Part shown: positions 30,097 through 59,595 of the stretch, one piece after another | Numbering within the stretch: the first letter of the stretch is position 1 | Layout: each line of letters begins with the position of its first letter | Source: Erythrobacter sp. F6033 | GTDB lineage: Bacteria; Pseudomonadota; Alphaproteobacteria; Sphingomonadales; Sphingomonadaceae | Length of the DNA stretch: 64,000 nt | NCBI RefSeq assembly: GCF_023016005.1 | Contig: NZ_JALKAZ010000001.1 | Coordinates: 2,386,001 to 2,450,000 of the forward strand | Direction: 5' to 3' | Translations under genes and position numbers: made by a program | Notes under the pieces: generated by a model | The model's input: only the letters and a program-made list of their open reading frames with translations | Databases searched by the model: none | Told to the model about the DNA's origin: nothing

Positions 30097-30153
30097 GCTT
30101 TTTCCTCCTGGCGTTCTTTCGGAAGGATGGATGGCGAGAGCCGCGTTTTCTGT

Positions 30154-30173
30154 CATATCCCAGCTGGGGTATG
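30154..30173. promoter_or_regulatory. 20-bp near-perfect palindrome between adhesin and LuxR-hydrolase gene
   Basis: The two 10-nt halves, CATATCCCAG and CTGGGGTATG, are reverse complements at 9 of 10 positions. The site lies in the divergent region, 58 bp from the autotransporter start and 33 bp from the regulator start. LuxR-family proteins bind dimeric sites of about this size, so it is a candidate operator for the adjacent regulator (inference). Confidence 0.5.
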
Positions 30174-30206
30174 CGGGGCTTTGCATGGTGCTATATCTCG
30201 CAAGCG

Positions 30207-33993: not shown

Positions 33994-34128
33994 AGCCCAT
34001 TGGTCCCTATTCTCTTCCGAGACCGCTGGGCCGTCCGCTTTGCGCCCCAGTTTAAGACGTAGCCATTCCAAATCTTAGTTCCCGAAAGCGGACATTCTCT
34101 GAGGCCATTCCGGCCAAGGAGAATAACA

Positions 34129-36372: not shown

Positions 36373-36507
36373 TCCTGGAGCATTAGAATGGGCGAGGCGC
36401 GTCCAAATCCAACGTCACGTCTCCCCATTCGACCAATATTGTAATGTCAATAATCAAAGACATCAGGAGTTACCCTGGTGGTCTTGGCAATAAGGCACGG
36501 AAATAGC

Positions 36508-43631: not shown

Positions 43632-44903
43632 TCAATTGACTTCGAAGTGCTTGATGAATTTCAGGTCTGGATCGACGCCAAGCCCTGGCGCCGTCGGTAT
43701 CGCCACTGTGCCCCCATTTTCAGCGACTTGTTCATTGATGCGAAGGGGCTCCTGAAGGAGCTCCTCGCGGAAACGGTTCGGCGTCGTGTCATATTCGAGC
43801 ATCGGTTGGACCGGATGCGCGGCGCCTGGGAAATCGGGCAGTGCCGCCAGCAGGTGTAGGTTGGTCCCAACCGCCACCGCTGATCCCCAAACGTGATTGA
43901 CGACCGGCACGAAGTGCGCCTGCGCAAGCGCCAAGACCTTTTGGTACTCACTTATCCCGCCAAGGGCGCAAACTTCAGGTTGAAGGATATCGACGCAGCG
44001 CCCCTCAATCAGGTCACGGAAACCCCACCGGGTGAATTCGGCCTCACCGCCTGCGATATTGAGATCAAGCGCTGTACACAGATCACGGTAGCCCTGGCGG
44101 TCTTCAGGCGCGACCGGTTCTTCGAACCAGTAGACACCGAGCTCTTCCAGGGCTCGGCCCAAGGGTATTGCCTCGCGGGTGGTGTATGCGTGATTGGCGT
44201 CGACCATGAGATCAATATCGTCACCGATCGATTTACGCACGGCCTCGACAAGCTGAATATCGCGCTTCGGTCCGAGACCGATCTTCATCTTCATGGCGCC
44301 AAAGCCAGCATCCTTGATGCGGGCGCTCTCTGCTGCAAAACGTTCGGCGAGATCATCCTTGCGCTGCAGCATCATGCCATAGCCATAAGCTGGAATACGC
44401 TCACGGAAGGCCCCACCAAGGAGCTTCCAGACAGGAACCCCCTGAGCTTTACCGGCGATATCCCAAAGCGCGATATCAACCCCTGACAATGATTGGATCG
44501 GCATACCCTTCTGCCCGTGATCACGGAGAAGATTATACACCTTGTGCCAGATAACTTCGCGGTCCAGCGCATCGTCACCAACGATCATAGGGGCAATGAC
44601 CCGCTCGACGATTGTCTTGTTGGCAAAAGCGATTGCGCCGCCGCCAAAGCACTCACCCCAACCGGTAATTCCGGCATCCGTCTGAACTTCCACAAGGTGA
44701 GCGGTGCGCTTCGTGTAATATTGCTGCGAATATCCGAGCTCATCATCGAGATCGTATTGCAGCACATGGCTTTTGATCGCCGTGATACGTATCTTGCCGA
44801 GTGCAACGCGAAGGCTGCGCCCCTGTGCGCTATCATTAGTGTCCGGAGCCACACCAGCTCCATTCATCACACTACCTGTCACATCAGATGTTTGAATTTC
44901 CAA
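43632..44903 (-). CDS. Enolase-superfamily enzyme, probable 3,6-anhydrogalactonate cycloisomerase
   Basis: 423 residues. A TTG start at 44903 is chosen because GGGAGGGGAGG sits 5-15 nt upstream; a longer ATG version would translate the ribosome site itself. The mandelate-racemase fold is shown by acid-base lysines K205 and K207 (MKMKIG), metal ligands D235 (VDANHAY), E261 (FEEPV) and E287 (GGEAEF), and H337 (VNHVWG). This residue set suits a cycloisomerase or dehydratase on a sugar acid. A separate DgoD is present, and an aldehyde dehydrogenase is in the locus, so conversion of 3,6-anhydrogalactonate to 2-keto-3-deoxygalactonate is the best guess. Another acid-sugar dehydratase activity is possible. 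Confidence 0.75.
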   Translation of the reverse strand: MEIQTSDVTGSVMNGAGVAPDTNDSAQGRSLRVALGKIRITAIKSHVLQYDLDDELGYSQQYYTKRTAHLVEVQTDAGITGWGECFGGGAIAFANKTIVERVIAPMIVGDDALDREVIWHKVYNLLRDHGQKGMPIQSLSGVDIALWDIAGKAQGVPVWKLLGGAFRERIPAYGYGMMLQRKDDLAERFAAESARIKDAGFGAMKMKIGLGPKRDIQLVEAVRKSIGDDIDLMVDANHAYTTREAIPLGRALEELGVYWFEEPVAPEDRQGYRDLCTALDLNIAGGEAEFTRWGFRDLIEGRCVDILQPEVCALGGISEYQKVLALAQAHFVPVVNHVWGSAVAVGTNLHLLAALPDFPGAAHPVQPMLEYDTTPNRFREELLQEPLRINEQVAENGGTVAIPTAPGLGVDPDLKFIKHFEVN

Positions 44904-44939: not shown

Positions 44940-45335
44940 TTACTTCTTGAGCAGAAAAGGAGGCGTCTCTGACGGCGCGAGCGCACCGTTGCGATCTTTG
45001 TCGCGATTACCGAAAATCCAACTGTAGACTTCGACGAGTTCAGCCGCGCTCATCTCGTCATCACTATCGGCGTTGAAGCGTTCGGCAGTTAGGGTTTGAA
45101 AATCACCGCCCGCCACTGTCCACTCGGCGATCGTAATGCGATCATCTTTGTTTACGTCGAAACGACCGTAGTCGCGCTCCGCCATCGCCATCACGAATTC
45201 GTCGAGCGAGAGCGCCCCATCGCCATTCGCGTCAACAGAATCCTTAAAGCCGCCAGTATCGGCCGCCGCAGCGGTCGCGAACCCCAAAGTGATAAGTGCG
45301 CCTGCCTTCAAGAGGCGGCCTGCCCAACTCTGCAT
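44940..45335 (-). CDS. Exported EF-hand protein
   Basis: 131 residues from the ATG at 45335 (GGGAGAGA upstream; a longer start would extend into the leader). After a signal peptide (AGALITLGFATAAAAD) come four EF-hand-like loops: DANGDGALSLDEF, DVNKDDRITIAEW, NADSDDEMSAAEL and DKDRNGALAPSE. It is probably a periplasmic calcium-binding protein. It leads the unit with the cycloisomerase-like enzyme and TonB receptor, and a copy of the shared palindrome lies 65 bp upstream. Sulfated galactans bind calcium, which may explain its presence (inference). Confidence 0.82.
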   Translation of the reverse strand: MQSWAGRLLKAGALITLGFATAAAADTGGFKDSVDANGDGALSLDEFVMAMAERDYGRFDVNKDDRITIAEWTVAGGDFQTLTAERFNADSDDEMSAAELVEVYSWIFGNRDKDRNGALAPSETPPFLLKK

Positions 45336-45399
45336 ATAGTCTCTCCCTACGGGCCGCCGCGCGATTCGCACCACGCTTTCCGACCTGTGCGGACTATAT

Positions 45400-45414
45400 A
45401 AACATCATATGTTT
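45400..45414. promoter_or_regulatory. Galactan-regulon operator, site 1
   Basis: Exact AAACATCATATGTTT: AAACAT and ATGTTT are reverse complements around CAT. On the minus strand it lies between a possible -35 TTGCAA and -10 TTATAT (18-nt spacer), upstream of the EF-hand gene. Occupancy there would block RNA polymerase. Confidence 0.75.
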
Positions 45415-45459
45415 GCTAATTGCAAGCGGCCTTGTGCATTTTCTGGTTGCACCAAAGCA

Positions 45460-46605
45460 TCACCAGTTTGTGAAAGAGCCGTCCGGCCGTGTCATCCTCG
45501 GGGCTTCCCAGAATTTGAAGCTAGCCGCCTCGACTGCCTCTTCATTGACAAGCACACCGTGACCGGGACGGTCAGTGATCTCGAGAGCACAGTTTTCCTC
45601 GTGCGGGGCGTGTTCAAAATAGAGCCCTTCTTCGTCGCCATCGCGCAGCGCATAAGGCGCGACTTCGTACCATCCGCAATTTGGAATCGCGGCGCATATT
45701 TGGAGCGACGCCGCTGTGCAAATAGGCCCAAGCGGATCATGCGGCATGACATCAATGTAGTGCGTTTCGGCCATTGCAGCGACCTTCATCGCTTCGGTGA
45801 TTCCACCGACATTGCACACATCGATCCGCGCATAATTCGTCAGACCTCGCTCAATCAGAGGTGCGAATTGCCACTTGTCTGAGCATTCCTCTCCGATAGC
45901 GAAAGGAACATCCGTCATCTTGCGCAGCGCCTCGTATGCCTCCACCGATTGATACCGGATTGGCTCTTCGAGAAAGTCCAAAGTTCCGGATGGCATTTTT
46001 TGGCAGAACCGGGCCGCTTCTGCGACCGATAGGCGCGAATGAAAATCAATGCCCAGCACAATGTCCGGGCCGATTTCAGACCGCAATTCGGTTAGCACGC
46101 TGGCCGTGTTAGAGACGCTCTTGTCGATATTAACGGTCCCAGCCGCCATATCGCCCGCCGCAGTGCGGATGACTTTCCAGCCATTAGCGATGAATTGATT
46201 CACTTCTTCGATTAAAGTTTCATCATGCGGCTTTATCGATGTGACGAAGCACTGCACTCTGTCACGCTGTTTTCCGCCAAGCAGTGCGTGGATCGGTATA
46301 TTCAGCGCTTTGCCGCGAATGTCCCAAAGCGCGATGTCGATTGCCGACAGTGCAGCGGTTAGAACGCGTCCGCCTTCAAAATATTGCCCGCGATACACTT
46401 CCTGCCAGATTGCGCCGATCCGGCCCGCGTCTTTGCCAATCAAGAACTCGCGAAAATGATCAACCGCGCCGGCGACAGCTTTTTCACGGCTGGACAGGCC
46501 GGATTCGCCCCAGCCCGTGATGCCTTCGTCGGTCTCGACTTTTACAAGACACAGATTTCGATGCCCCACCCAAACTGGGTAAGCCTTCACATCGGTGATC
46601 TTCAA
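45460..46605 (-). CDS. dgoD: D-galactonate dehydratase
   Basis: 381 residues from a TTG start with GAGGAGGGG upstream. The sequence aligns along its length with DgoD (MKITDVKAYPVW..., VKVETDEGITGWGE, IDIALWDIRGKAL). Active-site features are visible: D187 and H189 in GIDFHSR, E213/E214 in LEEPI, E239/E240 in IGEE, and H289 in MPHDPLGP. It dehydrates D-galactonate to 2-keto-3-deoxy-D-galactonate. It is the last gene of the dgoK-dgoA-dgoD unit, 22 bp after dgoA. A related acid-sugar substrate is possible but the aldolase and kinase next to it favour galactonate. Confidence 0.85.
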   Translation of the reverse strand: MKITDVKAYPVWVGHRNLCLVKVETDEGITGWGESGLSSREKAVAGAVDHFREFLIGKDAGRIGAIWQEVYRGQYFEGGRVLTAALSAIDIALWDIRGKALNIPIHALLGGKQRDRVQCFVTSIKPHDETLIEEVNQFIANGWKVIRTAAGDMAAGTVNIDKSVSNTASVLTELRSEIGPDIVLGIDFHSRLSVAEAARFCQKMPSGTLDFLEEPIRYQSVEAYEALRKMTDVPFAIGEECSDKWQFAPLIERGLTNYARIDVCNVGGITEAMKVAAMAETHYIDVMPHDPLGPICTAASLQICAAIPNCGWYEVAPYALRDGDEEGLYFEHAPHEENCALEITDRPGHGVLVNEEAVEAASFKFWEAPRMTRPDGSFTNW

Positions 46606-46626
46606 GAACCCCTCCTCGCAGTCAGT

Positions 46627-47247
46627 TCACATGCCAGTTGCGGCGCGCAAAGCCTCTGCTTTCTGACTTACCGCGTCAACCGTATCGCCTTTGCGATAGA
46701 GTTCGCCTCCGATACCATATCCATCCACGCCCGCCTTGCGCCAGTCCTGAATGGTTTCCGCGCTGACACCGCCAGTCACAACGATCCGCGCATTGGTTGG
46801 AAGCACAGATTTCATCGCTTTGATATGGTCCGATCCATATGTCGAAGCAGGAAACACCTTAAGCCAGTTTGCCCCGGCTTCGATCGCTGCAAAAGCCTCA
46901 GTCGGCGTGGCTACGCCTGGCAAGGAAATCATTCCGGACTTCACAGTTTCGCGCACAACATCTGCGTTGAAATTCGGTGAGACGATGATCCGACCACCCG
47001 CTTCACGCACCAGTTTTACGTGCTCTACCGTAAGAACAGTTCCTGCGCCCGTGATGCAGTCTGCCGGTATCGCATCGGTCAACATTTTGATCGATTTGTA
47101 CGGGTCAGGCGAATTGAGTGGCACCTCGATGCAGCGAAACCCTTTCGAATAAAGCTCCTCACCAATCGCCACGACCTCTTCCGGCTTCACACCGCGAAGG
47201 ATGGCTACCAGCGGGCAGGCTGCGATTGCGTCTTCAATTGTCGTCAT
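46627..47247 (-). CDS. dgoA: 2-dehydro-3-deoxy-6-phosphogalactonate aldolase
   Basis: 206 residues, a class I aldolase of the KDPG/KDPGal family. Schiff-base lysine K130 lies in NWLKVFPAS; E41 (IEVPLNSP) and R18 (ILRGV) are the usual partner residues. VPLNSP rather than the VTLRTP of KDPG aldolase (Eda) favours the DgoA branch. It splits the phosphorylated keto-deoxy acid into pyruvate and glyceraldehyde-3-phosphate. It lies between dgoK (27 bp) and dgoD (21 bp). Confidence 0.87.
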   Translation of the reverse strand: MTTIEDAIAACPLVAILRGVKPEEVVAIGEELYSKGFRCIEVPLNSPDPYKSIKMLTDAIPADCITGAGTVLTVEHVKLVREAGGRIIVSPNFNADVVRETVKSGMISLPGVATPTEAFAAIEAGANWLKVFPASTYGSDHIKAMKSVLPTNARIVVTGGVSAETIQDWRKAGVDGYGIGGELYRKGDTVDAVSQKAEALRAATGM

Positions 47248-47274
47248 GGAGTGCCTTTCGTGAAAACTGCGGCG

Positions 47275-48192
47275 TCACAGCGCCAAGAAACCGGCGTGGA
47301 TTGCATCTATTCCATCAAGTGTGGTGCTCTTGTGACCCAAACGCTCGATCGCCAGCGCGTATTTGCTGCACAGCGACGGATCACCGATCAATTCCACGCC
47401 TTGCTCTGGAACACCATACAAGCTGAGCGCATTTTGCACGCAGGATCCAAGCAGCAATCCGGACATGTAGCTTGGCCCGTCCCCTGCGCCGTCTGGGTTG
47501 GTGAGCGTTCGCGTTCGTGTTGAAAACAGCGAATGCAAAAGCGCGTCGGGATGGTTCAACATCAATTCGACGCCCGCTAGAAAGCTATCCTGATCAAACG
47601 GCTTGGCGAAGATAACGTCCGACTTTGCGACAAGGATCGAATGCTCTTTGAGCAGCGCGAACAATTCGCCTGTGAGCGCAGTGTTGAATGACTCTAATCG
47701 CGAACCCGACATTCTACACCATTTTGTGTGCGTGCCAGGCAGGCAGAACAGGCGATCTTCCTGCGAAGCGTCCGGATTACTGGCGAGCCAGCCGAGCATC
47801 TGCAGCTCCTCACCGCGCATCAGATCAGCCTGCCCCATCGGGTTTTCACAGCGCAGCCCTGGCAGGATCGCCATTTTGTGGCCGCATTGATTGAAACCTT
47901 CGGCATGGGCCGACAATTCGTGCAGCGTCGCGGGGCAATCGACATAGCCCGTTTCGCGCCAGCCAATGTTCGAGCCGACCATCCCGGCCATAACGATATT
48001 AAGTTTGCCGAACTTGCTGGTCCATGGCTCAATCGTTTCAAGCAGGACATCAGCAATCGGTCGGTTCAATTTCGCAATCCCATCGCCATAGGCAATATGA
48101 TCACGATCAGGCGCGCTCACACCTTCTTCAATCAGCATGGCGCGCATTCGGCTGGTTCCCCAGTCAACTCCGATATACGGTTTCGAATACAT
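47275..48192 (-). CDS. dgoK: 2-dehydro-3-deoxygalactonokinase
   Basis: 305 residues with the DgoK start pattern YIGVDWGTSRMRAMLIEEG (ASKHA phosphate-binding loop), VMAGMVGSNIGWRETGYVDC, and LPGTHTKWCRM. It phosphorylates 2-keto-3-deoxygalactonate at O6. It is the first gene of the unit, with GGAG before the ATG. A near match to the regulon palindrome lies 66 bp upstream, shared with the divergent MFS gene. Confidence 0.9.
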   Translation of the reverse strand: MYSKPYIGVDWGTSRMRAMLIEEGVSAPDRDHIAYGDGIAKLNRPIADVLLETIEPWTSKFGKLNIVMAGMVGSNIGWRETGYVDCPATLHELSAHAEGFNQCGHKMAILPGLRCENPMGQADLMRGEELQMLGWLASNPDASQEDRLFCLPGTHTKWCRMSGSRLESFNTALTGELFALLKEHSILVAKSDVIFAKPFDQDSFLAGVELMLNHPDALLHSLFSTRTRTLTNPDGAGDGPSYMSGLLLGSCVQNALSLYGVPEQGVELIGDPSLCSKYALAIERLGHKSTTLDGIDAIHAGFLAL

Positions 48193-48257
48193 CCCCTACT
48201 CCGCCAATGCTGTGTCATTCATGCCGTCATTAACGCGGCCGCACTCAGCCCTACATG

Positions 48258-48272
48258 ATTCATCATATGTTT
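48258..48272. promoter_or_regulatory. Galactan-regulon operator, site 2
   Basis: ATTCATCATATGTTT matches the palindrome at 13 of 15 positions, the left arm being altered. On the minus strand it lies between TTGACC and AATCAT (17-nt spacer), facing dgoK; the MFS gene starts 87 bp away on the other strand. Confidence 0.65.
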
Positions 48273-48358
48273 GCATAGGTCAAATCTATGTGTCATATCG
48301 TCGGACAAATCTGGCGCGGGGAAATTAGCGCCGGGACTATGGAGAGGGATACCACCTG

Positions 48359-49921
48359 ATGCAGGTTTCAACCACGCGGCGCAATGTCACGCGCTATGCC
48401 TTGATCGCCGCCTTTGGTGGTTTTGTTTTCGGCCTTGATGCAGCAAACATTTCCGGAGCGATGCGGTACGTTAGCGCGCTGTTCGGATTGAGTTCGACGC
48501 AAGCTGGCTTGGTTGCATCGGTGCCGTTGGTGGGCGTTATCTTCGCACTGTTTTTCACTGGTATGCTCTGCGACCGCTTCGGTCGTAAGCGCATCCTTCT
48601 CGCCATCGCCTATACCTATTTGGTGTCAGCCGCCCTTTCGGCTTTCGCGCCCAGCTACGAAGTGCTGGTGCTCGGCCGATTTATCGGCGGCGTTGCCTTC
48701 GCATCGCTGACCGTATCGGCGATGTATATTGGCGAGATCGCACCCGCAGACCAACGCGGACGGTTTGTCTCTGTATCGCAATTGTTGATCACGTTGGGCA
48801 GCCTTTTGGCGTTTATCGTGAACTACTTCCTCGTCGGTTGGATTGATGATGTCGCGATGTTCACAGATCAAAACATCTGGCGCTTCATGCTCGGTTTCGA
48901 GATCATCTTTAACGTGATCTGGATTGCGGCGCTCTACACAATCCCAAAGAGCCCGCGGTGGTTGATATCCAAAGGACAAGACATCGAAGCACGCGAGATT
49001 TTCGCCAAAACCCTGCCAGAAGATCAGGTTGCGGCTGTACTCGCCGATGTCGAGCAGTCAGTTGAGAATGAGACCCGAACCGACGTCGTGGTACAGTTGG
49101 GTAAGCTGTTTTCGCGCCCAATGTGGTATGTGCTCGCCGTCGCTTGCATCTATGCGGTTGTGCAGGGGGCAACTGGCATGAATGCCGTGTTGTTCTTCGC
49201 CCCGACCGTATTTGAGCAGGTCGGGATGACCACCGAAGACACATTCTTCCAGACGATGATTTTAGGTTTGGTCGCAGTGCTTGGAACGCTTGTTGCGATT
49301 TCACTGGTGGAGAAGTGGGGCCGCCGCACCCTCACCTTACTTGGGCTTGGCCTTGTGGTGGTGGCGCATACCTCCACCTGGTACGGCTTCAATTCTGCAA
49401 CATACGAGTTGAACGAGGCGTCGATCACACAGATCACGGCTGCAGATCCGGAGTTCGAAACCTCACGTCTCGACGGCCTCGTCGGCAATGTCTACGAAAG
49501 TGATGTCGAGCTTAAGACCGATCTTGCATCGATCTATTCGCTTGAAGAGCTTCCTCTGGTTAGCGGCGCAATCATCGACAGCACGATCACCATTGAACCA
49601 TTCTTTGTTCTGTTCGGCCTGTTCGCTTTCTATGCAGCCTTCAACATGTCGATCGGCCCCATTATGTGGGTGATATTTTCGGAGCTTTTCCCGACATCCG
49701 TGCGCAGCGTGGCCTTACCATTTGTCGCACTGGTACAAACAATTTCGAGTTACGCGATCACTCAGGCTTTTCCTTGGCAACTCGAAAACATGGGATCGGC
49801 GACAACCTTCCTGATTTTCGCGGTGATTGGCGTTATCGGGCTGGTCGCGATGTACTTCCTATTGCCTGAAACCAAGGGCAAGACGATCGAACAGCTTGAG
49901 CAAGAGCTGATACGCACATAG
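48359..49921 (+). CDS. MFS sugar porter
   Basis: 520 residues with sugar-porter signatures: GLDAANISGAM in TM1, DRFGRKR in the first cytoplasmic loop, YIGEIAPADQRGR, IPKSPRWL, EKWGRR and LPETKGKT near the C-terminus. Twelve membrane segments are expected. An unusually long polar insert of about 80 residues (roughly 345-420) interrupts the second half between two membrane segments. It probably imports D-galactose or an anhydro-sugar by proton symport. The SDR gene follows at 36 bp. Confidence 0.88.
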   Translation: MQVSTTRRNVTRYALIAAFGGFVFGLDAANISGAMRYVSALFGLSSTQAGLVASVPLVGVIFALFFTGMLCDRFGRKRILLAIAYTYLVSAALSAFAPSYEVLVLGRFIGGVAFASLTVSAMYIGEIAPADQRGRFVSVSQLLITLGSLLAFIVNYFLVGWIDDVAMFTDQNIWRFMLGFEIIFNVIWIAALYTIPKSPRWLISKGQDIEAREIFAKTLPEDQVAAVLADVEQSVENETRTDVVVQLGKLFSRPMWYVLAVACIYAVVQGATGMNAVLFFAPTVFEQVGMTTEDTFFQTMILGLVAVLGTLVAISLVEKWGRRTLTLLGLGLVVVAHTSTWYGFNSATYELNEASITQITAADPEFETSRLDGLVGNVYESDVELKTDLASIYSLEELPLVSGAIIDSTITIEPFFVLFGLFAFYAAFNMSIGPIMWVIFSELFPTSVRSVALPFVALVQTISSYAITQAFPWQLENMGSATTFLIFAVIGVIGLVAMYFLLPETKGKTIEQLEQELIRT

Positions 49922-49956
49922 CATCAAGCCAAACGAACACACGCGAGAGGGGCGTT

Positions 49957-50736
49957 ATGCGGGGAAGACTGGACAGTCAGGTCGCGATTGTGACTGGCGG
50001 AGCGGACGGCATCGGCAGAGCAATTGCGGAACTCTTCGCGCGCGAAGGTGCTAAAGTGTGCATTGCCGATGTGAACAGGGAACTTGGCGAAGAAGTCAAA
50101 GCAGGTATCTGCGACAAGAGCGGCGATGCCATCTTCGTCGAGACAGATATTGCTGAGCCTGCGTCCATCGCACAGATGGTGGAACAGACCGTCGAGAACT
50201 TGGGTGAGCCCAGCGTGCTCGTCAACAATGCCGGCTTCATTGCATTTACAGACGATCCAGCGGAGGCGACTCCGGAACTGTGGCATAAGATCTTCGCGGT
50301 CAATCTCGAAGGAATGTGGGAATGCAGCCGGGCGGTGTTGCCGTTCATGCGCAAGGCCGGGCGCGGTTCGATCGTCAATTTGGGCTCGGTTCATTCATTC
50401 CAGATCGTGACCGGTCATTTTCCATACGCCGTCACAAAGCATGGCGTCATTGGCCTGACGCGCAGCCTTGCCGTCGAATACGGTCCAGAGAACATTCGCG
50501 TGAACGCGCTGTGCCCTGGCATGGTCGAAACACCGACTGCGTTGCGCGGATGGGAAGAGCTTGATGATCCGGCCGGAGTGCGCAAATGGGTTGGTGATCT
50601 GCACCCACTGAAACGCAGCGCCAGCTGTGAAGAAATGGCCTATCCAGCGCTGTTCCTCGCCTGTGAGGAAAGCAGCTTCATGACTGGCCAATCTCTCGTG
50701 GTCGATGGTGGGCGTTCGGCCTTTTATTCCGACTGA
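49957..50736 (+). CDS. SDR oxidoreductase, probable D-galactose 1-dehydrogenase
   Basis: 259 residues of a classical short-chain dehydrogenase: [11 protein letters not shown] (cofactor), NNAG, a catalytic Ser region NLGSVHSF, and YAVTK. An Asp at the end of strand 2 (CIADVN) favours NAD. A galactonate dehydratase and an SMP-30 lactonase without any other cytoplasmic sugar dehydrogenase in the window make D-galactose the likely substrate. It is co-transcribed with the porter and its end overlaps the convergent sulfatase gene by 13 bp. Confidence 0.75.
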
Positions 50737-52181
50737 GGCGGCACCGTCTTGCGGTCTGGCCTCCAATTCCAAGGCTCCAAATCGCGCCCTGGCTGACGGT
50801 AACGATCCATCCGGTCTGTATCGTATTCTTCAAACTGCTGGTCGAGCGTCCAAAGCGGACGTTCGTGGGTCAATTCCCACTGATGCAGTTTCTGGAACAT
50901 ATCTTTCAGGATTGATGGATTCTCGGGCGACAGATCGCTCTGCTCTTCGGGATCGCGCGCGATATTGAACAATTGCGCAGGTCGATCAGCGAACCGGATG
51001 AGCTTCCAATCGCCACGCCGCATCGCCGCGCGGACATCCTTTTTCCAGAACAATTGTTCGTGCGGGTTCCCCTTTTTCGCGCCGCTCAGATGTGGCCAGA
51101 GGTTGACGCCATCGATGTTCTCAAGCTCGGCCTCGTCCCCTCCAGCCGCGACATGGAAACTTGGCAGCAAATCCATCGTGCTGACCGGGCGATCAAAGGT
51201 GCCGGGGCCAAGCTTTTCAGGCCAGCTGATGACGTAAGGCACACGAATACCGCCTTCGAGATGGTTCGACTTCGTACCCGCAAGCGGCCAGTTGATAGAC
51301 GCATTCTTATCCGTTGGCCCGCCGTTGTCATTCGTGAACACAACAATCGTGTTGTCGAGCTCTCCAGCCTGTTTGATTGCATCAAAGACATTGCCAATCG
51401 CACGGTCCATCGCCCACATCATGGCAGCATAGGTTTTGCGCTTCCCCGTCAAATTAGGGAAACGGGCAAGGTCTTCTTCTGTGGCCTCCATCGGCGTGTG
51501 CGGCGCGTTGAACGAGAGATAGATGAAGAAAGGGGCTTCATCATCGCGTGCGACAAACTTCGCCGCTTCTTCGCCCAGAACATCGGTTACGTAGCCACTG
51601 GGTTCTTCGAAATTGCGGAAACCGCGCTCCATCAGCTCGTCACGCGTGTTGTTCCTGCGGCCATTCTTATAAGGGAAGAAACTGCGCGCACCGCCGCGAA
51701 AGCCGTAGAATTCATCAAATCCGCGGTAGCGCGGGTGAAAGCGATCGGCATTTCCAAGATGCCACTTGCCATACACAGCAGTGCGGTAACCCTGACGCTT
51801 CAAATAATCGGCAATGGTCCATTGATCGAGCGGCAAGCCCATATCATCGCCGAGGAATTTCGAGTTGGGGCTCATATAGCCCGGCACGTTGATTTCCTGA
51901 TAGCCAAAGCGCTGCTGATAACGCCCCGTCATCAATCCCGCACGCGAAGGGCCACAGGTCGGATCGGTCACATAGCCTTGTGTAAAAACGACCCCACGCT
52001 CAGCAAGAGCGTCTAGATTGGGCGTGCGGATATCCTTGCTGCCATGGAACCCAAAATCTTCGTATCCAGCATCATCAGAGAATATCAGCAGAATATTTGG
52101 CTGATCCTCCGCTGAGAGTGGTCCCGAAACAATCAGAGCAAACAGTGCGAGCAGGGTTTGAAAGACGTTGGGCCGGGTCAT
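50724..52181 (-). CDS. Exported S1 sulfatase (Cys-type), paralog 1
   Basis: 485 residues. A Sec signal ([18 protein letters not shown]) precedes the alkaline-phosphatase-type fold: [16 protein letters not shown] (metal Asp pair) and the formylglycine motif [13 protein letters not shown] with C76. Other hallmarks are [20 protein letters not shown] and VVFTNDNGG. It closely resembles the sulfatase at 55438-56889 in layout (GFDEFYGF). It probably removes sulfate esters from galactan oligomers in the periplasm. Subfamily assignment needs a search. It is the last gene of the minus-strand unit. Confidence 0.9.
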
Positions 52182-52214
52182 AGAAATTCCGTCAGGTGGA
52201 GGTTGAGCGAAGGC

Positions 52215-53027
52215 TCAAAGCACCGGGTCTTCGCCTAATTCCAATCGGAGGCGACGAACCGCATCTTCGAGCAGTTTTGAAGTCAATTTTTCGGCTTTAT
52301 CCGGGTCACGCTCTTCGATTGCGTTCGCCAGATCGCGGTGGAACGGGATCGACGCGCCATTCTCGCGCGGATCCTTGTTCGTGATGCGCACGCTGATCAG
52401 GAGCGCCGAATAGGTCACGCCTTCGATGGCAGCCAGAAATTCATTGTGGGCAGCACGCAGGATCGCTTTGTGAAACAGCGCATCGGCGATGATGAAACGC
52501 TCTGTCGATCCCTGTTCTTCTGCCATCCGATCACAGGCGAGTTGAATGCTCTGAATATCTTCTTCAGTTGCGCGTTCGGCGGCCCAGCGCGCAGCCTTTG
52601 GCTCGATGGCTAGCCTAATTTCAGCCAATTGAGCGAGGAAATCTCTGCGCGGCGGGGCGGAAAGGTGCCAAGCCATGACATCATCGTCGAGCAGCTTCCA
52701 GTTGTTGCGTGTTCGCACATGAGTGCCGACCCCGCGCCGAACAGAAAGCATGCCCTTTTCTACCAGAATTTTGACCGCCTCCCGAACAACGACCCGGCTG
52801 ACGGAATAGCGTTCGGCCAGCGAGTTTTCGTCATCGATTAGCTCGCCCGGTTCAAACGTTCCGGCAACGATTCGGCGACCCATTTCACGGGCCATTTGGG
52901 CGGGAAGACTCAAACGGACATTCGCAGTGTCCTTAAGGTCATAATAGACAAGTTCGCTCATGCCACTTGCATTAGACCCAATATCGAGTCTCGCCAAATA
53001 GGTATTACGTTTACTGTCTGCAGACAT
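52215..53027 (-). CDS. GntR/FadR-family regulator, DgoR-like
   Basis: 270 residues. The winged HTH (about 38-110) includes ENSLAERYSVSRVVVREAVK and VGTHVRTRNNWKLLDDDVMAWHL; the FCD ligand domain follows with EIRLAIEPKAARWAAERATE, very like E. coli DgoR. It probably represses the locus until galactonate or a keto-deoxy acid binds. The ATG at 53027 is used; it starts 3 nt after the TGA of the lactonase gene. Start codons at 53033 (TTG) or 52961 are possible. Likely binder of the three palindromes. Confidence 0.83.
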   Translation of the reverse strand: MSADSKRNTYLARLDIGSNASGMSELVYYDLKDTANVRLSLPAQMAREMGRRIVAGTFEPGELIDDENSLAERYSVSRVVVREAVKILVEKGMLSVRRGVGTHVRTRNNWKLLDDDVMAWHLSAPPRRDFLAQLAEIRLAIEPKAARWAAERATEEDIQSIQLACDRMAEEQGSTERFIIADALFHKAILRAAHNEFLAAIEGVTYSALLISVRITNKDPRENGASIPFHRDLANAIEERDPDKAEKLTSKLLEDAVRRLRLELGEDPVL

Positions 53028-53029
53028 GC

Positions 53030-53914
53030 TCAATTGGTCCGGAATACCGGTTCTGCAACTCCGATGACACAGCCAGCAAAGCGCAAGGTCGTGCCATGAA
53101 CGATGCAGTCGGATTCGACATTGGCAAGGCCGATTGCCGCCGTTGTCACGAACATGTCTGTGTAATTCTTGCCGCCAAACGCGGGGCAGGTTGAGCGCGG
53201 CGTTTGTGTTTCGAACCGATCCACGATTTTTCCATCGGGTGAGATCCGGAAAACGGCGCCTCCGTCAAAGATAGCCGCCAGGATGTGGCCTTGTTGATCG
53301 ATGATCGCGCCATCAATCGTGGTGCCGTCTTCCGTAAAGTCGAGGAAGAGCTCCGGCTCGGCAGCCGGCCAACCGTCATCATCCAGAGCAATGCGCCACG
53401 TTTTCTTGGCGGCTGAATCTGTAAAATAGGCCAGCTTGGCGCCATGGTCGAAGCAAATACCGTTTGGAATGGTGATGCTTGGCACCAGGACGTGAAGCTC
53501 GCCGCGATAGTAGCGATAGACAGCGCCCGCGCCTTCTTCGGCGGATTTGCTCATCGTGCCGATCCAGAAACCTCCCCAAGGGTCGGCCCTGCCATCATTG
53601 CTCCGCGTTTCCGGATCGCCTGCTTCGATATCGCATAACCTTTCGGTCGTCCAATCGGCAATCGCAAGACTGTGCAAACCGGTTTCAGTCGCAAGCAACA
53701 ATGTGTCGGCGTCTATCAACGCCAAGGCAGAGACCATTTCGTCAAAACGGTGCTCGCGCTGCCCTTCAACGCCGCTACTCATCACTTTCTGGTTCGGGAT
53801 ATCCACCCAGAACAGCTCTTGTCGATCAGGATGCCACAACGGCCCTTCGCCCAATCCGCAAGCGCGATCATCAAAGACATCCACCACCCTGCACTCACCC
53901 TGTTCGGTCATCAT
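53030..53914 (-). CDS. SMP-30/gluconolactonase-family lactonase, probable galactonolactonase
   Basis: 294 residues of the six-bladed propeller family: GLGEGPLWHPDRQELFWVDI with the metal-binding Glu, SNDGRADPWGGFWIGTM, and PNGICFDHGAKLAYFTDS. No signal peptide, so it is cytoplasmic. It would hydrolyse the lactone made by galactose dehydrogenase. Its ATG overlaps the upstream sulfatase stop in an ATGA arrangement, indicating translational coupling. Confidence 0.85.
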   Translation of the reverse strand: MMTEQGECRVVDVFDDRACGLGEGPLWHPDRQELFWVDIPNQKVMSSGVEGQREHRFDEMVSALALIDADTLLLATETGLHSLAIADWTTERLCDIEAGDPETRSNDGRADPWGGFWIGTMSKSAEEGAGAVYRYYRGELHVLVPSITIPNGICFDHGAKLAYFTDSAAKKTWRIALDDDGWPAAEPELFLDFTEDGTTIDGAIIDQQGHILAAIFDGGAVFRISPDGKIVDRFETQTPRSTCPAFGGKNYTDMFVTTAAIGLANVESDCIVHGTTLRFAGCVIGVAEPVFRTN

Positions 53915-55434
53915 TTGTAAGTCCGCTCGATAAAACTCTGCAGTTTTTTCGCAGACGGATCTTCGATAGCTTCAAGCCGATCGAGCAGACGGCCCCGCAA
54001 TTGACGAACAACATCTGCGTGTTCGCGTGAACTGATAAGGTTTGTCACTTCGCCGGGATCAGTCACCAAATCATACAGCTCGTCTCGGCTGTCGCCCGGG
54101 TTCCAGACATATTTGTGCTCGGGCGTGCGAATGGCACGCAGACCGAACCACGCGCCATTGTACCATTCAAACGCATACAGAGCATCGTCCGGCCCCGTCA
54201 GCGCGCTAGACCCGTCAATCACGCCAGCAAGTGAACGACCGTCGATAGGTTTGGACGGCGTCAGCTTCATCCAGTCAAAGAGAGTCGCAGGAATATCAAT
54301 CAGCGACACATGGCGATTGACGACGCCGGGTTTTGCATCCGGATCGCGCATCAAGAGCGGGATGCGCATTAGCTCGTCATATGCATAGGCGGCCTTGTCA
54401 TAGAGGCCGTGCTCACCAATCATGCTCCCTTGATCGCCCAGAAAAACAATATGAAGATCATCATAGATGCCTTCTTCTTTTGCGGTGCGGATTAAATCGC
54501 CAACAGCGCGGTCGATCATCGCCACGGCGCCGTAATATTTGGCGCGGGATTCACGCCAGTCGGTTTCCGTCATGTGGCCAACATCGTGCCACGGCCAATA
54601 CGCATATTCTTGAGCCAAAGGCTTGTTCTTACGCGCCGCACCGAAATTGCTTGGTAAAGCGATCTCAGCCGGATCGAACATAGAGGCATAGGGTTCTGGC
54701 ACGCGATAGGGCGGATGCGGCTGTTGAAAGCTCACCACTCCCAAAAACGGCTCTCCGCGCCGCGCTGCATTGCGGATCAACTCCTGTCCGTCATGCACTT
54801 TCTCCGCAGCCGGTGTGTCTTCATATCCACCCGCTGTCGTCTGGTAATATTGGTGTTTCTCTCCGCCCGCATCGCGCGCACCGCTGTTGTATCCGCGAAT
54901 GATCTCCAGCCCAGCGTATGGCGTGTAAGGCTTGATACCTGCAGTGACTTCGGCATCAAGTTTTGCAAATTCAGCGCCGCGGATTTGCGGGCCGCGTTCG
55001 CCCAAATGCCACTTACCCACATAGCCGACATAATACCCGCTATCGGCCGCATCCCGCAGGAAGCCGCCCTCTTCCGGATTCATGTCATTGAGACGCGAAG
55101 TCCACAGGCCAAGATTGTCATCAAGCCCGGTGCGGTGTCCCCAGCGTCCGGTGAACAGCGCAGCACGCGATGGCGAGCACAATCCAGTGGTGGTGATTGC
55201 CATATCAAAGCGGGTCGATTCAGCGGCCAGCGCATCGATATTCGGCGTCGGCACAGGCCCACCCCGGTAAGAGAAACTGTCGAACCTCAAATCATCAAAA
55301 AACAGGATGAGGATGTTCGGCTTTTCTTCTTCGGCTGCTTCCTGACTAGTCGCCTCGGCTGACTGGCCATTGGCCAGCGTCGCGCACGATGTGAGAGCAA
55401 AGGCTCCGAGGACAGCAAGGGTGCGGAGCAACAT
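53911..55434 (-). CDS. S1 sulfatase lipoprotein (Cys-type), paralog 2
   Basis: 507 residues. A lipobox (FALTSCATL) predicts a lipidated, membrane-anchored enzyme. The catalytic motif is LCSPSRAALFTGR with C86; metal Asp pair in NILILFFDDLRFD; VGKWHLGERG; and FLGDQGSMIGEHGLYDK. It is clearly a different subfamily from the other two (longer middle section, GDQG...GEHG ending), so it probably attacks another sulfate position. The start lies 3 nt after the upstream sulfatase stop. Confidence 0.9.
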   Translation of the reverse strand: MLLRTLAVLGAFALTSCATLANGQSAEATSQEAAEEEKPNILILFFDDLRFDSFSYRGGPVPTPNIDALAAESTRFDMAITTTGLCSPSRAALFTGRWGHRTGLDDNLGLWTSRLNDMNPEEGGFLRDAADSGYYVGYVGKWHLGERGPQIRGAEFAKLDAEVTAGIKPYTPYAGLEIIRGYNSGARDAGGEKHQYYQTTAGGYEDTPAAEKVHDGQELIRNAARRGEPFLGVVSFQQPHPPYRVPEPYASMFDPAEIALPSNFGAARKNKPLAQEYAYWPWHDVGHMTETDWRESRAKYYGAVAMIDRAVGDLIRTAKEEGIYDDLHIVFLGDQGSMIGEHGLYDKAAYAYDELMRIPLLMRDPDAKPGVVNRHVSLIDIPATLFDWMKLTPSKPIDGRSLAGVIDGSSALTGPDDALYAFEWYNGAWFGLRAIRTPEHKYVWNPGDSRDELYDLVTDPGEVTNLISSREHADVVRQLRGRLLDRLEAIEDPSAKKLQSFIERTYK

Positions 55435-55437
55435 CTA

Positions 55438-56889
55438 TTATGACCCCTGCCATTCATTGAAGATGGAAATCGCGCTTTCGTCTGCCATTTGTGCGTTCCA
55501 ACGTTCCCACGCCTTTTGCAATTCGTCAGAACGCGCCTTTTCGGAGGTCTGCAGGTTTGTCTGCTCGCCCTTGTCGTTTGAAAGGTCGTAGAACATCCGC
55601 CGCCGTTGGTACTCAACCAGCTTATCGCTGCCTTCGACCACACCAAACCGGCCAATGCGCGAATTGTCGCGGGTATTGGCGGGATAACGCCAGAATAGCT
55701 GACGCTTAGGGGCCTGATTGCGCAAATCACCGGCGAGATACGGGATCAGATTGACGCCATCCAATGCGTTTTGGGCAGGTGCGTTCACACCGTTTACGCC
55801 CGCAGCAGTTGCCATAATATCGAGCGAGCTGACCGGATGCTTGTAATCGCCGCCAGCCGGAATCTGGCCGCTCCAACGCATAGCAAACGGAACACGGACC
55901 CCACCTTCGTAAATGTCGCCCTTACCGCCTTTCAACGGCAGATTGATTGATCCGTTGCGAGCGCGCACCAACGGTCCGCCGTTGTCAGAGAGGAAGAACA
56001 CAATCGTGTCTTCAGCCAGGTCAAGTTCGTCCAACTTGTTGAGGACATCGCCAACACCGTCATCGACCGCGCTGATCATCGCCGCATAAGTGCGGCGGCG
56101 CTCATCTTTGATATGCTTGAAGCGATCGAGATATTCCTGCGTCGCGTGCATCGGAGTGTGCGGCGCGTTGTAAGCGAGATAGAGGAAGAATGGCTCATCC
56201 TTTCTCCGCTCCACAAAATCGACCGCCTTTTCCGAAAGCCAGTCGGTCAGGTAACCGCTCGTTTTGACCTGCTCGCGGCCAACCATCAACCAACTTTGAT
56301 AGAGCTGTCCGCCATTCTGCGCCTCGGCCACCGGAATCGGGCGCAGACGGTCGAGGAAATAATTGTGACCACCATTGGTGAAGCCGTAAAATTCATCAAA
56401 GCCCCGCTCCAAAGGATGGAACTGCGGGTGATTGCCCATATGCCATTTGCCAATGATCGCACTCGTATAGCCGGACGGCGCCAGCACATCTGCGATAGTG
56501 CGTTCAGTCAGCGGAAGGCCCGCTTTGGTATCGAGAGGGTTCTCTGATGAGTTGAGGTCATAGCCAAACCGGGATTGGTAACGCCCGGTGAGCAACCCTG
56601 CACGGCTTGGCCCGCATACGGGAAAGCTGACATATCCTTGGTCAAAACGAACGCCTTCATTGGCGATGCGATCGATGTTGGGCGTAGGTATATCGGTACT
56701 GCCGTTGAAGCCAACATCGGCGTAGCCTTGGTCATCGGTAAGGATCACAATGATATTCGGTGCTCGCTCCAACGCCATTGGTTCAGACTGCGCGCTGTTG
56801 TCGGACGCCGCTGCGACAGGCGCAGGAGCCTGCATGGTGCAACCCGCCAGAGCCACGCTTACGGCCGCAAATGCTAATTTTTTGAGCAT
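55438..56889 (-). CDS. S1 sulfatase lipoprotein (Cys-type), paralog 3
   Basis: 483 residues from the ATG at 56889 with GGGAGAG upstream. Lipobox VALAGCTMQ; metal-site NIIVILTDDQGYADVG; formylglycine motif [13 protein letters not shown] with C92; IGKWHMGNHP; YLAYNAPHTP; FFLSDNGG. It is similar to the sulfatase at 50724-52181 but lipid-anchored. Likely periplasmic desulfation of galactan fragments. It follows the aldehyde dehydrogenase gene by 31 bp. Confidence 0.9.
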   Translation of the reverse strand: MLKKLAFAAVSVALAGCTMQAPAPVAAASDNSAQSEPMALERAPNIIVILTDDQGYADVGFNGSTDIPTPNIDRIANEGVRFDQGYVSFPVCGPSRAGLLTGRYQSRFGYDLNSSENPLDTKAGLPLTERTIADVLAPSGYTSAIIGKWHMGNHPQFHPLERGFDEFYGFTNGGHNYFLDRLRPIPVAEAQNGGQLYQSWLMVGREQVKTSGYLTDWLSEKAVDFVERRKDEPFFLYLAYNAPHTPMHATQEYLDRFKHIKDERRRTYAAMISAVDDGVGDVLNKLDELDLAEDTIVFFLSDNGGPLVRARNGSINLPLKGGKGDIYEGGVRVPFAMRWSGQIPAGGDYKHPVSSLDIMATAAGVNGVNAPAQNALDGVNLIPYLAGDLRNQAPKRQLFWRYPANTRDNSRIGRFGVVEGSDKLVEYQRRRMFYDLSNDKGEQTNLQTSEKARSDELQKAWERWNAQMADESAISIFNEWQGS

Positions 56890-56920
56890 CAAGTTCTCTC
56901 CCTTGGCGTTCAGCCAATCC

Positions 56921-58360
56921 CTATGTCGTTATCGCAGTACTGATGCGTTTGATCGCGAAGTAATCATCGAGCGCAAAGTGCGAACAATCCACGCCCACAC
57001 CCGATTGTTTGAAGCCGCCATGCGGAAGTTCGATAGAATATTTGACCCCGTTCACCTGAACCTCGCCAAACCGCAAGGCATCCGCGCACCTTTGCGCCTT
57101 TGCGGCATCCTTGGTGAAGACATAGGCGGTAAGCGCGGCATCGGTGTCATTGGCCGCTGCAATCATTGCCGCTTCCCCAGCGACAGGCTCCATCAGATTT
57201 ACAACAGGTCCGAACACTTCTTCCCGCGCGACCCGCATGTCCTGTCCAACCGAACCCAACACGGTCGGTGCAAAGAAAGCATCACTCGCCACGTTTTCAG
57301 GAATGCAATTGCCAGCGAGAACCTCAGCGCCTTGCAAAGCAGCGTCAGAAACAAGCCCCTCGATACGGGTCCGCGCACCGGCATCGATCAACGGCCCCAT
57401 GCCAATTTCGGCGTCACGATCGAAGCCGACTTTGACAGCATTCGCACGTTCGACGATTTTTGATGCCAACTCTTCTGCGATTTCCGGCTCCGCATAGACC
57501 CTGTTGGGAGTTACGCAGATTTGGCCCGAATTTCCGAATTTGAGTGCCGCTATCGTGTCCGCCGCAAGGTCGAGATCCGCATCGGCAAAAACCAGCGCAG
57601 GCGCGTTGCCGCCGAGTTCCATGGAATATCTCTTAATGCTTGTCGCGCCGGTTCGGATCACATGCTTCCCGGTTTCGGTCGATCCAATCAGAGTCAGGAT
57701 CGCCGGAATGGGCGAGGCCGAAATCTGATCTCCGATTGCTGCATCATCGCCGCCCACAACATTCACCACGCCAGCCGGCAAGCCGATCTCATGGCAAATT
57801 CTACCAACCTCATAGGTCGAAAGCGGGGTCTTGGCCGATGGTTTGATCACAATCGGGCAGCCGGAAGCCATCGCAGGTCCAATTTTGTATGCGAGGTTCA
57901 GCAGCGGAAAATTCCAAGCGAGAAACGCTCCGACCACACCCAGAGGCTCTCTGACTATGCGATGCGTGTGCGTGCCATGCGGATCTTCCAGCGTAGAACT
58001 ATCAAGCTCACGCGCGAGGCCGGCATAATATTCGAGGCTCGATACGAGCATCTCAAAATCTTCGACCGCGCCTGCCCATGGCTTGCCCATTTCAATGTGG
58101 ACCAGATTGGTCAGCACTTCACGTTCGGCAACGACCGCAACGCGAAGACGGTCCATCCAATCAGCCCGCTCAGCTCCAGACAGCTGGGACCAGCCCGGAA
58201 ACGCGGCCTGTGCCGCCTCCAACGCGCGATCTACGTCTGCACGAGTGGAAGCGACAATCGCGCCAGACACGGTGTTGTCGGCAGGATTGATGACATCAAT
58301 TGTTGCATCATGCGAAACCAGTTCGCCTGCGATATATTGCGGGAAAATCCGCGCGCTCAT
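56921..58360 (-). CDS. Aldehyde dehydrogenase, probable 3,6-anhydrogalactose dehydrogenase
   Basis: 479 residues of the NAD(P) aldehyde dehydrogenase family: WNFPLLNLAYKIGPAMASGC, catalytic Glu in MELGGNAP, nucleophile Cys in GQICV, and EEVFGP. GGAGAGGAT precedes the ATG. In red-algal galactan pathways such an enzyme oxidises 3,6-anhydrogalactose to the acid. Co-location with three sulfatases and the cycloisomerase-like enolase supports that. Other aldehydes (for example lactaldehyde) cannot be excluded. First gene of the minus-strand unit, 105 bp from operator site 3. Confidence 0.82.
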   Translation of the reverse strand: MSARIFPQYIAGELVSHDATIDVINPADNTVSGAIVASTRADVDRALEAAQAAFPGWSQLSGAERADWMDRLRVAVVAEREVLTNLVHIEMGKPWAGAVEDFEMLVSSLEYYAGLARELDSSTLEDPHGTHTHRIVREPLGVVGAFLAWNFPLLNLAYKIGPAMASGCPIVIKPSAKTPLSTYEVGRICHEIGLPAGVVNVVGGDDAAIGDQISASPIPAILTLIGSTETGKHVIRTGATSIKRYSMELGGNAPALVFADADLDLAADTIAALKFGNSGQICVTPNRVYAEPEIAEELASKIVERANAVKVGFDRDAEIGMGPLIDAGARTRIEGLVSDAALQGAEVLAGNCIPENVASDAFFAPTVLGSVGQDMRVAREEVFGPVVNLMEPVAGEAAMIAAANDTDAALTAYVFTKDAAKAQRCADALRFGEVQVNGVKYSIELPHGGFKQSGVGVDCSHFALDDYFAIKRISTAITT

Positions 58361-58465
58361 ATCCTCTCCTCTGGCGATCCAACTCGCCGCGTTTATGCGT
58401 TAGCGCCGCTTCGAATTAGTCAAAAACGCATTGACCGAAGTGCAAACGGATAATACGACGTAGCT

Positions 58466-58480
58466 AAACATCATATGTTT
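58466..58480. promoter_or_regulatory. Galactan-regulon operator, site 3
   Basis: Exact AAACATCATATGTTT, in the divergent region between the aldehyde dehydrogenase and the FGE gene. On the minus strand it lies between TTGACT and TAGCTA (17-nt spacer). The FGE start is 60 bp away on the other strand. Confidence 0.75.
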
Positions 58481-58539
58481 GACAGTCAATCCTAAGCGGC
58501 ACGTGTTGTCGACGGAAGATGGCTGAGACGGGGAGAGAA

Positions 58540-59595
58540 ATGCGAACCAAGCGGCTTGCTATACCAACGCCATTGTTGCTGGCGGGTTTCATTGCGGCAG
58601 GGACGCTTGCGGGCTGCACTTCGTCAGAAGAAGGCACTCAATCCCCACCTGACATAGCGAAACGCGAATGCGCTGTCCCAGCTCAATCAGTGGTCCGCGT
58701 CGCTGCGGGGTCTTTTCCGATGGGACAGGAAAATGTCTACCGCGAAGAAGGCCCAATCCGGGAAGTCAGTGTAGATGAATTCTGGATCGATTCGACAGAA
58801 GTCACGAACGCCCAATTCGCCAAATTCACGCAAGCAACTGGATACGTGACGGTGGCGGAAAAGCCGGTTGACCCAGCAGTTTTCGGCGTTCCTGAGAGTC
58901 AGATTCCGCCTGACATGCTTCAGCCCGGGTCCGCCGTATTCACAGAACCCGCATTCGCTTCGACCCGTTACACCGATTGGTGGGAATATCGCCCGGGGGC
59001 AAACTGGAAATTGCCGACCGGAGCAGAAGGGAAGAAAGCCGAACCCAACCGCCCTGTCGTCCACCTCGCCTATGAGGATATGCAAGCTTACGCACGGTGG
59101 CGCGGCGGCCGAATCCCAACCGAGGCGGAGTGGGAATACGCCGCACGGGCGGGCAATGAAAATTACACCGATCAGCCAAGCGAAGCCAATAGCTGGCAAG
59201 GCGCCTTTCCAGTCAAAGACTACGCCGAAGATGGTTTCGCAGGAGTTGCACCTGTCGGTTGTTACGAACCAAACGATTGGGGCCTCTTCGACATGATCGG
59301 CAATGTCTGGGAAGTCACCAGCGATTTTTACGCCCCCGGACACGATCCAGAAGCGCCCAGCACAAACCCTCGCGGCCCATCTGAAAATGCCGCCTATGAT
59401 CCCGGCAATCCCGGCCTGCCATCGCGCGTCATGAAAGGTGGCAGTTATCTTTGCGCACCCAATTATTGTCAGCGTTATCGCCCTGCCGCCCGCCAGGGCA
59501 GAGATCCCGGCCTTGGGGCCAGCAATGTCGGGTTCCGATTGGCCTATGACAGCGAAGATGCCGCCATGCGCCCGATAAACGAGGAAATACAATGA
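58540..59595 (+). CDS. Formylglycine-generating enzyme (sulfatase activator), predicted lipoprotein
   Basis: 351 residues. The ATG at 58540 follows GGGGAGAG; a longer start would cover that box. A signal peptide ends in the lipobox TLAGCTSS. The FGE/SUMF1 domain follows: FPMGQENVYREEGPIREVSV, EVTNAQFAKFT, GGRIPTEAEWEYAAR, NVWEVTSDFY and the catalytic segment GGSYLCAPNYCQRYRPA. The two catalytic cysteines, C305 and C310, keep the 5-residue spacing of human FGE. It should convert the sulfatase Cys to formylglycine, apparently outside the cytoplasm. The next gene overlaps by 4 nt. Confidence 0.88.
   Translation: MRTKRLAIPTPLLLAGFIAAGTLAGCTSSEEGTQSPPDIAKRECAVPAQSVVRVAAGSFPMGQENVYREEGPIREVSVDEFWIDSTEVTNAQFAKFTQATGYVTVAEKPVDPAVFGVPESQIPPDMLQPGSAVFTEPAFASTRYTDWWEYRPGANWKLPTGAEGKKAEPNRPVVHLAYEDMQAYARWRGGRIPTEAEWEYAARAGNENYTDQPSEANSWQGAFPVKDYAEDGFAGVAPVGCYEPNDWGLFDMIGNVWEVTSDFYAPGHDPEAPSTNPRGPSENAAYDPGNPGLPSRVMKGGSYLCAPNYCQRYRPAARQGRDPGLGASNVGFRLAYDSEDAAMRPINEEIQ

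Follow-up and report, generated by a model that had tools for sequence, protein, structure and literature searches.

A gene cluster for galactan use in Erythrobacter sp. F6033 contains copies of the palindrome AAACATCATATGTTT, which has the form AAACAT-N3-ATGTTT, and a gene for a GntR-family regulator. Both were analyzed in a 64,000 nt stretch of DNA (G000:C1:2386001-2450000), which is called the window throughout. The sequence comparisons described below make it highly likely that the palindrome serves as operator for the GntR protein encoded in the cluster, a member of the FadR subfamily, and that this protein represses. With the two parts taken separately, the GntR protein is very probably the reader of the palindrome and probably a repressor. 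The original prediction had already named it as the natural binder, and this proposal is strongly supported by the co-occurrence of motif and regulator, by sites before gntR in many species, by an independent test set, and by footprinting among three Sphingomonadales genomes.

The original prediction had placed exact copies at 45400 and 58466 and a copy with two changes at 48258. A scan of the window with up to three mismatches confirmed all three, and the copy at 48258 was found to read ATTCATCATATGTTT. With both strands counted for each palindromic copy the scan gave six matches, a number that was reached by none of 100 dinucleotide shuffles. The genome-wide scan that had been proposed as a check (3,043,176 bases, two contigs) also turned out in favor of the prediction. 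The exact sequence was present only at 45400 and 58466 and is thus confined to the cluster, while up to two mismatches were found at six places, three in the cluster and three elsewhere, compared to one place for a control pattern. Around the three outside places no galactan genes were recognized by inspection of the open reading frames (ORFs), for which no family search was run.

Intergenic regions were aligned between the window, a second genome of the same genus (G047), and Sphingopyxis jiangsuensis, with three sequences each and two in the case of 58466. The mean column identity in the four regions was 55-68%, and the operator together with the preceding TTG formed islands in this poorly conserved DNA. 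G047 has two exact copies in the cluster, and an identical two-change copy between dgoK and the porter gene, while its third exact copy lies on a different contig. At 48258 the form AAACATATGATGAAT is shared by all three aligned genomes, and thus its two changes have been kept and are not a sign of decay; the preceding TTGACC is replaced by TTTAAC in G047. Upstream of the enolase-superfamily gene, which probably starts at 44867, the two relatives have exact copies at the position where the window has AAACATCTGATGTGA (44879-44893). Based on this alignment, the latter sequence is counted here as a putative fourth, degenerate operator of the cluster. The three sites had been thought to serve five transcription units; this has to be corrected insofar as the enolase/receptor unit probably has the site at 44879 for itself and does not share that at 45400.

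A search of genome contigs with the window GntR yielded 43 loci. One distant mycobacterial match was left out, and the motif was counted in the 42 ortholog loci (52-89% identity), near-duplicates included. When inverted repeats of 6-mers were counted de novo for all spacers from 0 to 12, AAACAT-N3-ATGTTT was the top repeat and was present in exact form in 39 of the 42 loci. Copies with exact arms numbered 100 at a spacer of three and 0-3 at each of the remaining spacers between 0 and 8. Between -250 and +60 of the gntR match the motif was present in 18 loci, whereas no 6-mer repeat exceeded three loci in 50 Markov controls. The best site between -150 and +60 had no mismatch in 16 loci, one in 13, and two in 10, and in random stretches of the same loci a site within two mismatches was seen in 107 of 2100 cases. 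Altogether, the ortholog loci contained 100 exact and 39 one-mismatch copies in 805,334 bp. In 28 paralog loci (33-40% identity, about 3.6 kb each, 102,390 bp), which were scanned independent of strand, neither an exact nor a one-mismatch copy was detected.

The co-occurrence was also seen at the level of genomes. When 396 genomes of the order were searched, the exact 15-mer and an ortholog (E up to 1e-60) turned up in the same two of them. Both searches are taken to have covered identical genome sets, as judged from equal set size and matching first rows. The second of the two genomes (G363) is, by its coordinates, the Sphingopyxis of locus L050. Another survey covered 147 genomes from the family to which Paraglaciecola hydrolytica belongs. 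Here, 16 genomes carried an ortholog and had a mean of 6.5 sites (range 3-12), compared to a mean of 0.69 in the 131 non-carriers (rank test, p 2e-12). Twelve of the carriers were already among the ortholog loci, and the new ones, G552, G585, G616 and G638, had 12, 8, 6 and 7 sites, respectively. Across 40 genomes (39 via the ortholog loci plus that of the window; L069 and L070 were not counted), 190 sites were found vs. 23 for the reversed pattern. Four plasmid orthologs, which had no part in the discovery of the motif, served as the independent set, and the exact site was directly before gntR in all four. In three distant genomes (L080, L085 and L086) the only exact copy of the genome also lies directly before gntR. 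Only one non-carrier had five or more sites, i.e., G615 with 11 copies. The center of the palindrome is TCC/GGA in 10 of these and TGC in one, and the TCC/GGA center is absent from the 100 exact sites of the ortholog loci. The copies (G615:C4, L142-L144) are part of a longer repeat between small ORFs, reminiscent of integron cassettes, and G615 was rejected as a counterexample, being an integron-like array with a different center. A looser GntR search in G615, G542 and G544, three of the seven non-carriers with at least three sites, retrieved distant homologs only.

The geometry of the sites was analyzed with a set of 100 exact sites, in which L054, L064, L073 and L076 (near-duplicates or overlapping loci) were left out and four plasmid loci and the window were added; that the total equals the count for the ortholog loci is a coincidence. 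While ORFs cover 89% of the sequence, 89 of the 100 sites lie outside ORFs. With both orientations considered, 44 sites had a TTG at offset -10, and the median for the other offsets was four. In the window, a TTG starts 9-11 bases before the sites at 45400, 48258 and 58466 in the minus-strand reading. The placement of the three copies in spacers between -35 and -10 elements, as claimed originally, was thus borne out for the -35 TTG, while the sigma-70 part of a promoter and terminator scan reported a promoter only at 48258 and none at 45400 or 58466. A T/A-rich sequence over the end of the site is at the expected -10 position, and the -10 element is poorly defined. A site close to gntR was present in 43 loci, and in 24 of these an ATG followed exactly 11 bases after it (e.g., L080, L082, L083, L125 and L127). 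Therefore, the gntR mRNA may be leaderless or nearly so.

The GntR protein contains an N-terminal winged helix-turn-helix domain (PF00392, E 2e-14) and a C-terminal FCD domain (PF07729, E 3e-25), which is the domain pair of the FadR subfamily. The gene had been located at 52215-53027; as judged from the orthologs, its start is probably at 52961. The best match in the PDB, and thus the closest solved relative by sequence, is 7c7e (E 6e-32 over residues 49-263), the DgoR protein of E. coli, which is described as repressor of galactonate catabolism. DgoR is reported to have two closely spaced inverted repeats, in contrast to the single sites in the window, where sulfatases, a receptor and anhydrogalactose genes also appear to be under control. 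Additional copies of the gntR clade or of its relatives were observed in several loci, either adjacent and often in tandem (L055, L057, L059, L063, L071, L074, L076 and L124) or as further copies (L066 and L081), and could encode heterodimer partners or sensors of different acids.

Residues were compared in 40 of 43 sequences, including that of the window (L050, L059 and L073 were too short). The metal triad D146/H150/H195 as well as R102 and R224 of DgoR are identical in all 40 proteins. In contrast, W181 is replaced by T and T191 by S in all 40, and Q173 by L in 39. Alanine mutants of R102, W181, T191 and R224 are reported to have lost galactonate binding, so two of these four residues are kept and two are replaced. 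The conserved triad and arginines and the closeness to DgoR would fit D-galactonate as effector, as in E. coli. This is a possibility, but a doubtful one, because two binding residues of DgoR are replaced throughout and galactonate dehydratase homologs are rare (9 of 42 loci); the suggestion of galactonate as inducer was thus weakened. At the identity thresholds chosen here, dgoK or dgoA was present in 31 loci and dauA or dauB in 23, and seven loci showed none of these four genes in flanks of up to 10 kb. The effector is most likely 2-keto-3-deoxy-D-galactonate or 3,6-anhydro-D-galactonate, although the argument from shared genes is suggestive only, the loci being cut at 10 kb.

Several observations weigh against the GntR protein as repressor at the palindrome. 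First, the half-site does not follow the rule of the subfamily. In a comparative study from 2015 (PMC4494728), FadR-subfamily operators follow TKGT-N3-ACMA (usually TKGT-N2/3-ACMA), with exceptions such as NanR and BioR. The window clade has the winged helix-turn-helix and FCD domains and the 3-nt center of the palindrome in common with those regulons, but ACAT-N3-ATGT instead of their half-sites. A residue code at FadR position 28 (R35) was tried and rejected: the clade mostly has N, also A, S, T or G, and the readable paralogs, with 12 of 28 rows left out, likewise lack R. Second, the match of motif and regulator is not perfect. In three of the 42 ortholog loci gntR lacks a nearby site with two mismatches or fewer, seven of the 131 non-carriers have at least three exact sites, and in Tropicimonas (G501) the sole exact copy is outside the gntR locus. 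The reversed control pattern was also more frequent in carriers (0.88 per genome vs. 0.40, rank test, p 0.007), which is probably a composition effect. Third, a position weight matrix trained on 129 exact and one-mismatch sites, with L054, L064, L073, L076, L050, L051 and the window left out, gave scores of 11.7 for 48258 and 10.8 for 44879, and each was reached by 4 of 20 shuffled windows. The window gntR itself is without a good site of its own, its best nearby score of 7.4 bits being in the range of shuffled windows. This weak operator-like sequence is at 52998-53012 between the lactonase gene and gntR. The gntR gene of Sphingopyxis is preceded by a two-mismatch site. Fourth, co-travelling regulators were checked in only eight loci, four by Pfam and four by annotation.

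The deviating half-site would also be explained if the palindrome were bound by a different regulator that accompanies galactan clusters, e.g., of the AraC or LacI type, and GntR were a mere neighbor. An AraC gene is indeed present beside a receptor gene on the P. carrageenovora plasmid, and the published cluster of this species lists galS. However, the only exact copy in the genomes of L080, L085 and L086 is next to gntR, and no other transcription factor was found near gntR in L080, L083 and L085, each with one exact site per genome (Pfam search at E up to 1e-10 with ORFs of at least 130 aa within about 5 kb, one ORF of L083 left out); in L082 the search showed one response regulator. Furthermore, among the genes listed, GntR is the sole regulator common to the four plasmid loci. 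A different binder is thus quite improbable. Slightly less probable still is that GntR binds the site as an activator or dual regulator. The position alone would be compatible with this, and some sites are more than 100 bp from gene starts, but the -35-like TTG just before the site would place it in the promoter spacer, the classic position of a repressor, and sugar-acid regulators of the FadR subfamily, as far as described, usually repress. Repression rather than activation is inferred. A reading of the motif as a mere chance or mobile repeat with no part in regulation, for which the integron-like array of G615 could be cited, can practically be dismissed, as it is contradicted by the co-occurrence data from 396 and 147 genomes, by the G615-type center missing from the ortholog loci, and by sites that vary in their flanks and sit at promoters.

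With GntR as the repressor, the following mechanism is proposed. In the absence of substrate, RNA polymerase would be blocked by a GntR dimer that occupies AAACAT-N3-ATGTTT in the spacer from the -35 TTG to the -10 element. Degradation of carrageenan-type galactan would then yield an intermediate that binds to the metal-containing FCD domain and makes GntR leave the DNA. As a result, the DauA-sulfatases-lactonase-gntR, FGE, dgoKAD, porter-SDR, EF-hand and DauB-receptor units would be induced together. Because gntR is itself within a controlled unit, the circuit would be self-limiting. The model leans on the likeness to sugar-acid regulators of the FadR subfamily, in which repression is relieved by an acid of the pathway.

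Regulator and operator form a switch of a common type. What sets it apart is the half-site that deviates from the rule, the altered ligand pocket, and the broad distribution together with carrageenan-type clusters. It also seems rather probable, though with clearly more reserve than for the operator itself, that a distinct FadR-subfamily clade with carrageenan clusters has changed both its DNA code, with ACAT-N3-ATGT in place of TKGT-N3-ACMA, and its ligand pocket, with T for W181 and S for T191. In this view, the clade senses an acid of the anhydrogalactose pathway and governs entire galactan regulons, with receptor and sulfatase genes among them. The clade is presumably spread over Alpha- and Gammaproteobacteria and SAR324, the classes of the carriers being taken from species names except for the four plasmids.

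Apart from DgoR and the FadR-subfamily regulons, two known systems are similar. The plasmid of P. carrageenovora encodes a GntR with 66% identity to that of the window, and the same operator is found there before gntR, two TonB receptor genes, the dauA unit, and the porter/SDR unit. According to the available part of its description, the corresponding genes dauA-D, Gdh, lactonase and SDR are present, and the regulator gene is labeled "Galactonate operon transcriptional repressor", with no operator given in that part. In contrast to the window, the plasmid carries two tandem gntR genes. Zobellia galactanivorans shares the DauA/DauB/DauC/DauD pathway and sulfatases, but its described regulator is a positive one of the AraC family (cgrA). 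The exact 15-mer was found in no paper of the open-access literature, and among the matches listed one of six near forms occurred, in a paper on maize microRNAs. A search by topic in the open-access literature found no operator for this GntR clade, RegPrecise and most subscription papers being outside its scope, and no galactonate or carrageenan regulon appeared in the accessible part of a regulon survey of Proteobacteria. For the use of carrageenan by Proteobacteria, the results offer an operator and a regulator that can be tested; the carrageenan papers, in the parts seen, name a GntR gene without a site or, for Zobellia, a different regulator. The motif makes it possible to outline carrageenan regulons purely from sequence, together with those receptor and sulfatase genes that are distant from gntR, and the clade lends itself to studying how recognition by GntR proteins shifts once a half-site departs from the FadR rule.

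The features of the cluster are compiled in Table 1.

Table 1. Putative operators and annotated genes of the galactan cluster in the window.
Feature	Position	Strand	Basis or remark
TonB-dependent receptor	40184..43558	-	TIGR01782
Enolase-superfamily protein	43632..44867	-	PDB 4ggb E 8e-91, then 5olc E 7e-88; probable start
Degenerate operator AAACATCTGATGTGA	44879..44893	-	11 nt 5' of ATG 44867 (enolase-superfamily gene); TTGGAA at usual -35 distance
Small EF-hand protein	44940..45338	-	PF00036
Operator AAACATCATATGTTT (exact)	45400..45414	-	5' of EF-hand gene; TTGCAA 45425-45420 on minus strand; alignment-conserved island (two relatives)
Galactonate dehydratase-like (dgoD)	45460..46605	-	NF010624, 284 bits, under cut-off 311
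dgoA-type gene	46627..47247	-	NF006600, cut-off exceeded
2-keto-3-deoxygalactonokinase (dgoK/dauC)	47275..48192	-	PF05035
Operator, two changes	48258..48272	-	Between dgoK (-) and sugar porter (+); TTGACC 48283-48278, AATCAT ending 48255
Sugar porter, MFS	48359..49921	+	TIGR00879
SDR dehydrogenase	49957..50736	+	PF13561
Sulfatase	50724..52181	-	PF00884
GntR/FadR-subfamily regulator, proposed binder	52215..52961	-	ORF 52215-53033; start MSELVYYD suggested by orthologs
SMP-30/gluconolactonase-like lactonase	53030..53914	-	PF08450
Sulfatase	53911..55434	-	PF00884
Sulfatase	55438..56892	-	PF00884
Aldehyde dehydrogenase, probable 3,6-anhydro-D-galactose dehydrogenase (DauA)	56921..58360	-	PDB 6pnu E 8e-169
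Operator (exact)	58466..58480	-	Between aldehyde dehydrogenase operon (-) and FGE (+); TTGACT 58489-58484; conserved with Sphingopyxis
FGE-type sulfatase-modifying factor	58519..59595	+	PF03781
SDR protein	59592..60599	+	PF00106
FG-GAP/ASPIC protein	60938..62836	+	PF13517, PF07593
GH167-like protein, 2030-aa ORF leaving the window	63014..64000 (L123:15-6107)		N-terminal part matches PDB 6ptm and GH167 glycoside hydrolase

The gene content indicates that the locus is most likely of the carrageenan (3,6-anhydro-D-galactose) type. This specifies further the galactan regulon of the original prediction. The gene set of a carrageenan locus was recognized by sequence similarity, i.e., dauA, dauB, dauC, dauD, sulfatases, FGE, a receptor, and a GH167-type enzyme. 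Of the two structures matched by the enolase-superfamily protein, 5olc is DauB and 4ggb a galactarolactone cycloisomerase; the match of the aldehyde dehydrogenase, 6pnu, is an entry from a Pseudoalteromonas carrageenan paper. The possibility that the enolases of Alteromonadales (about 36% identity) are agar-type cycloisomerases was rejected, the one tested having DauB (5olc) as best solved match. In L085 the best match of the enolase is 4ggb, followed by 5olc, and it is therefore less certainly DauB. What had been called the FGE/hydrolase unit really comprises FGE, an SDR protein, an FG-GAP/ASPIC protein and the GH167-like protein. The 2030-aa ORF at 63014 had no Pfam match and overlaps a second open frame, of 1680 aa, in antiparallel orientation (L123:976-6018).

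Two further observations were made. A second inverted repeat, TTGGTT-N2-AACCAA / TTTGGT-N4-ACCAAA, is present in 8 of the 42 ortholog loci and perhaps belongs to another regulator of such clusters. About 5 kb before the cluster of the window, two phage-type integrase genes are located at 32830-34761, which follow a YadA-like protein (27370-30186) and precede a protein at 36478-37944 that has a Tle1-like lipase domain; the cluster may thus stem from horizontal transfer.

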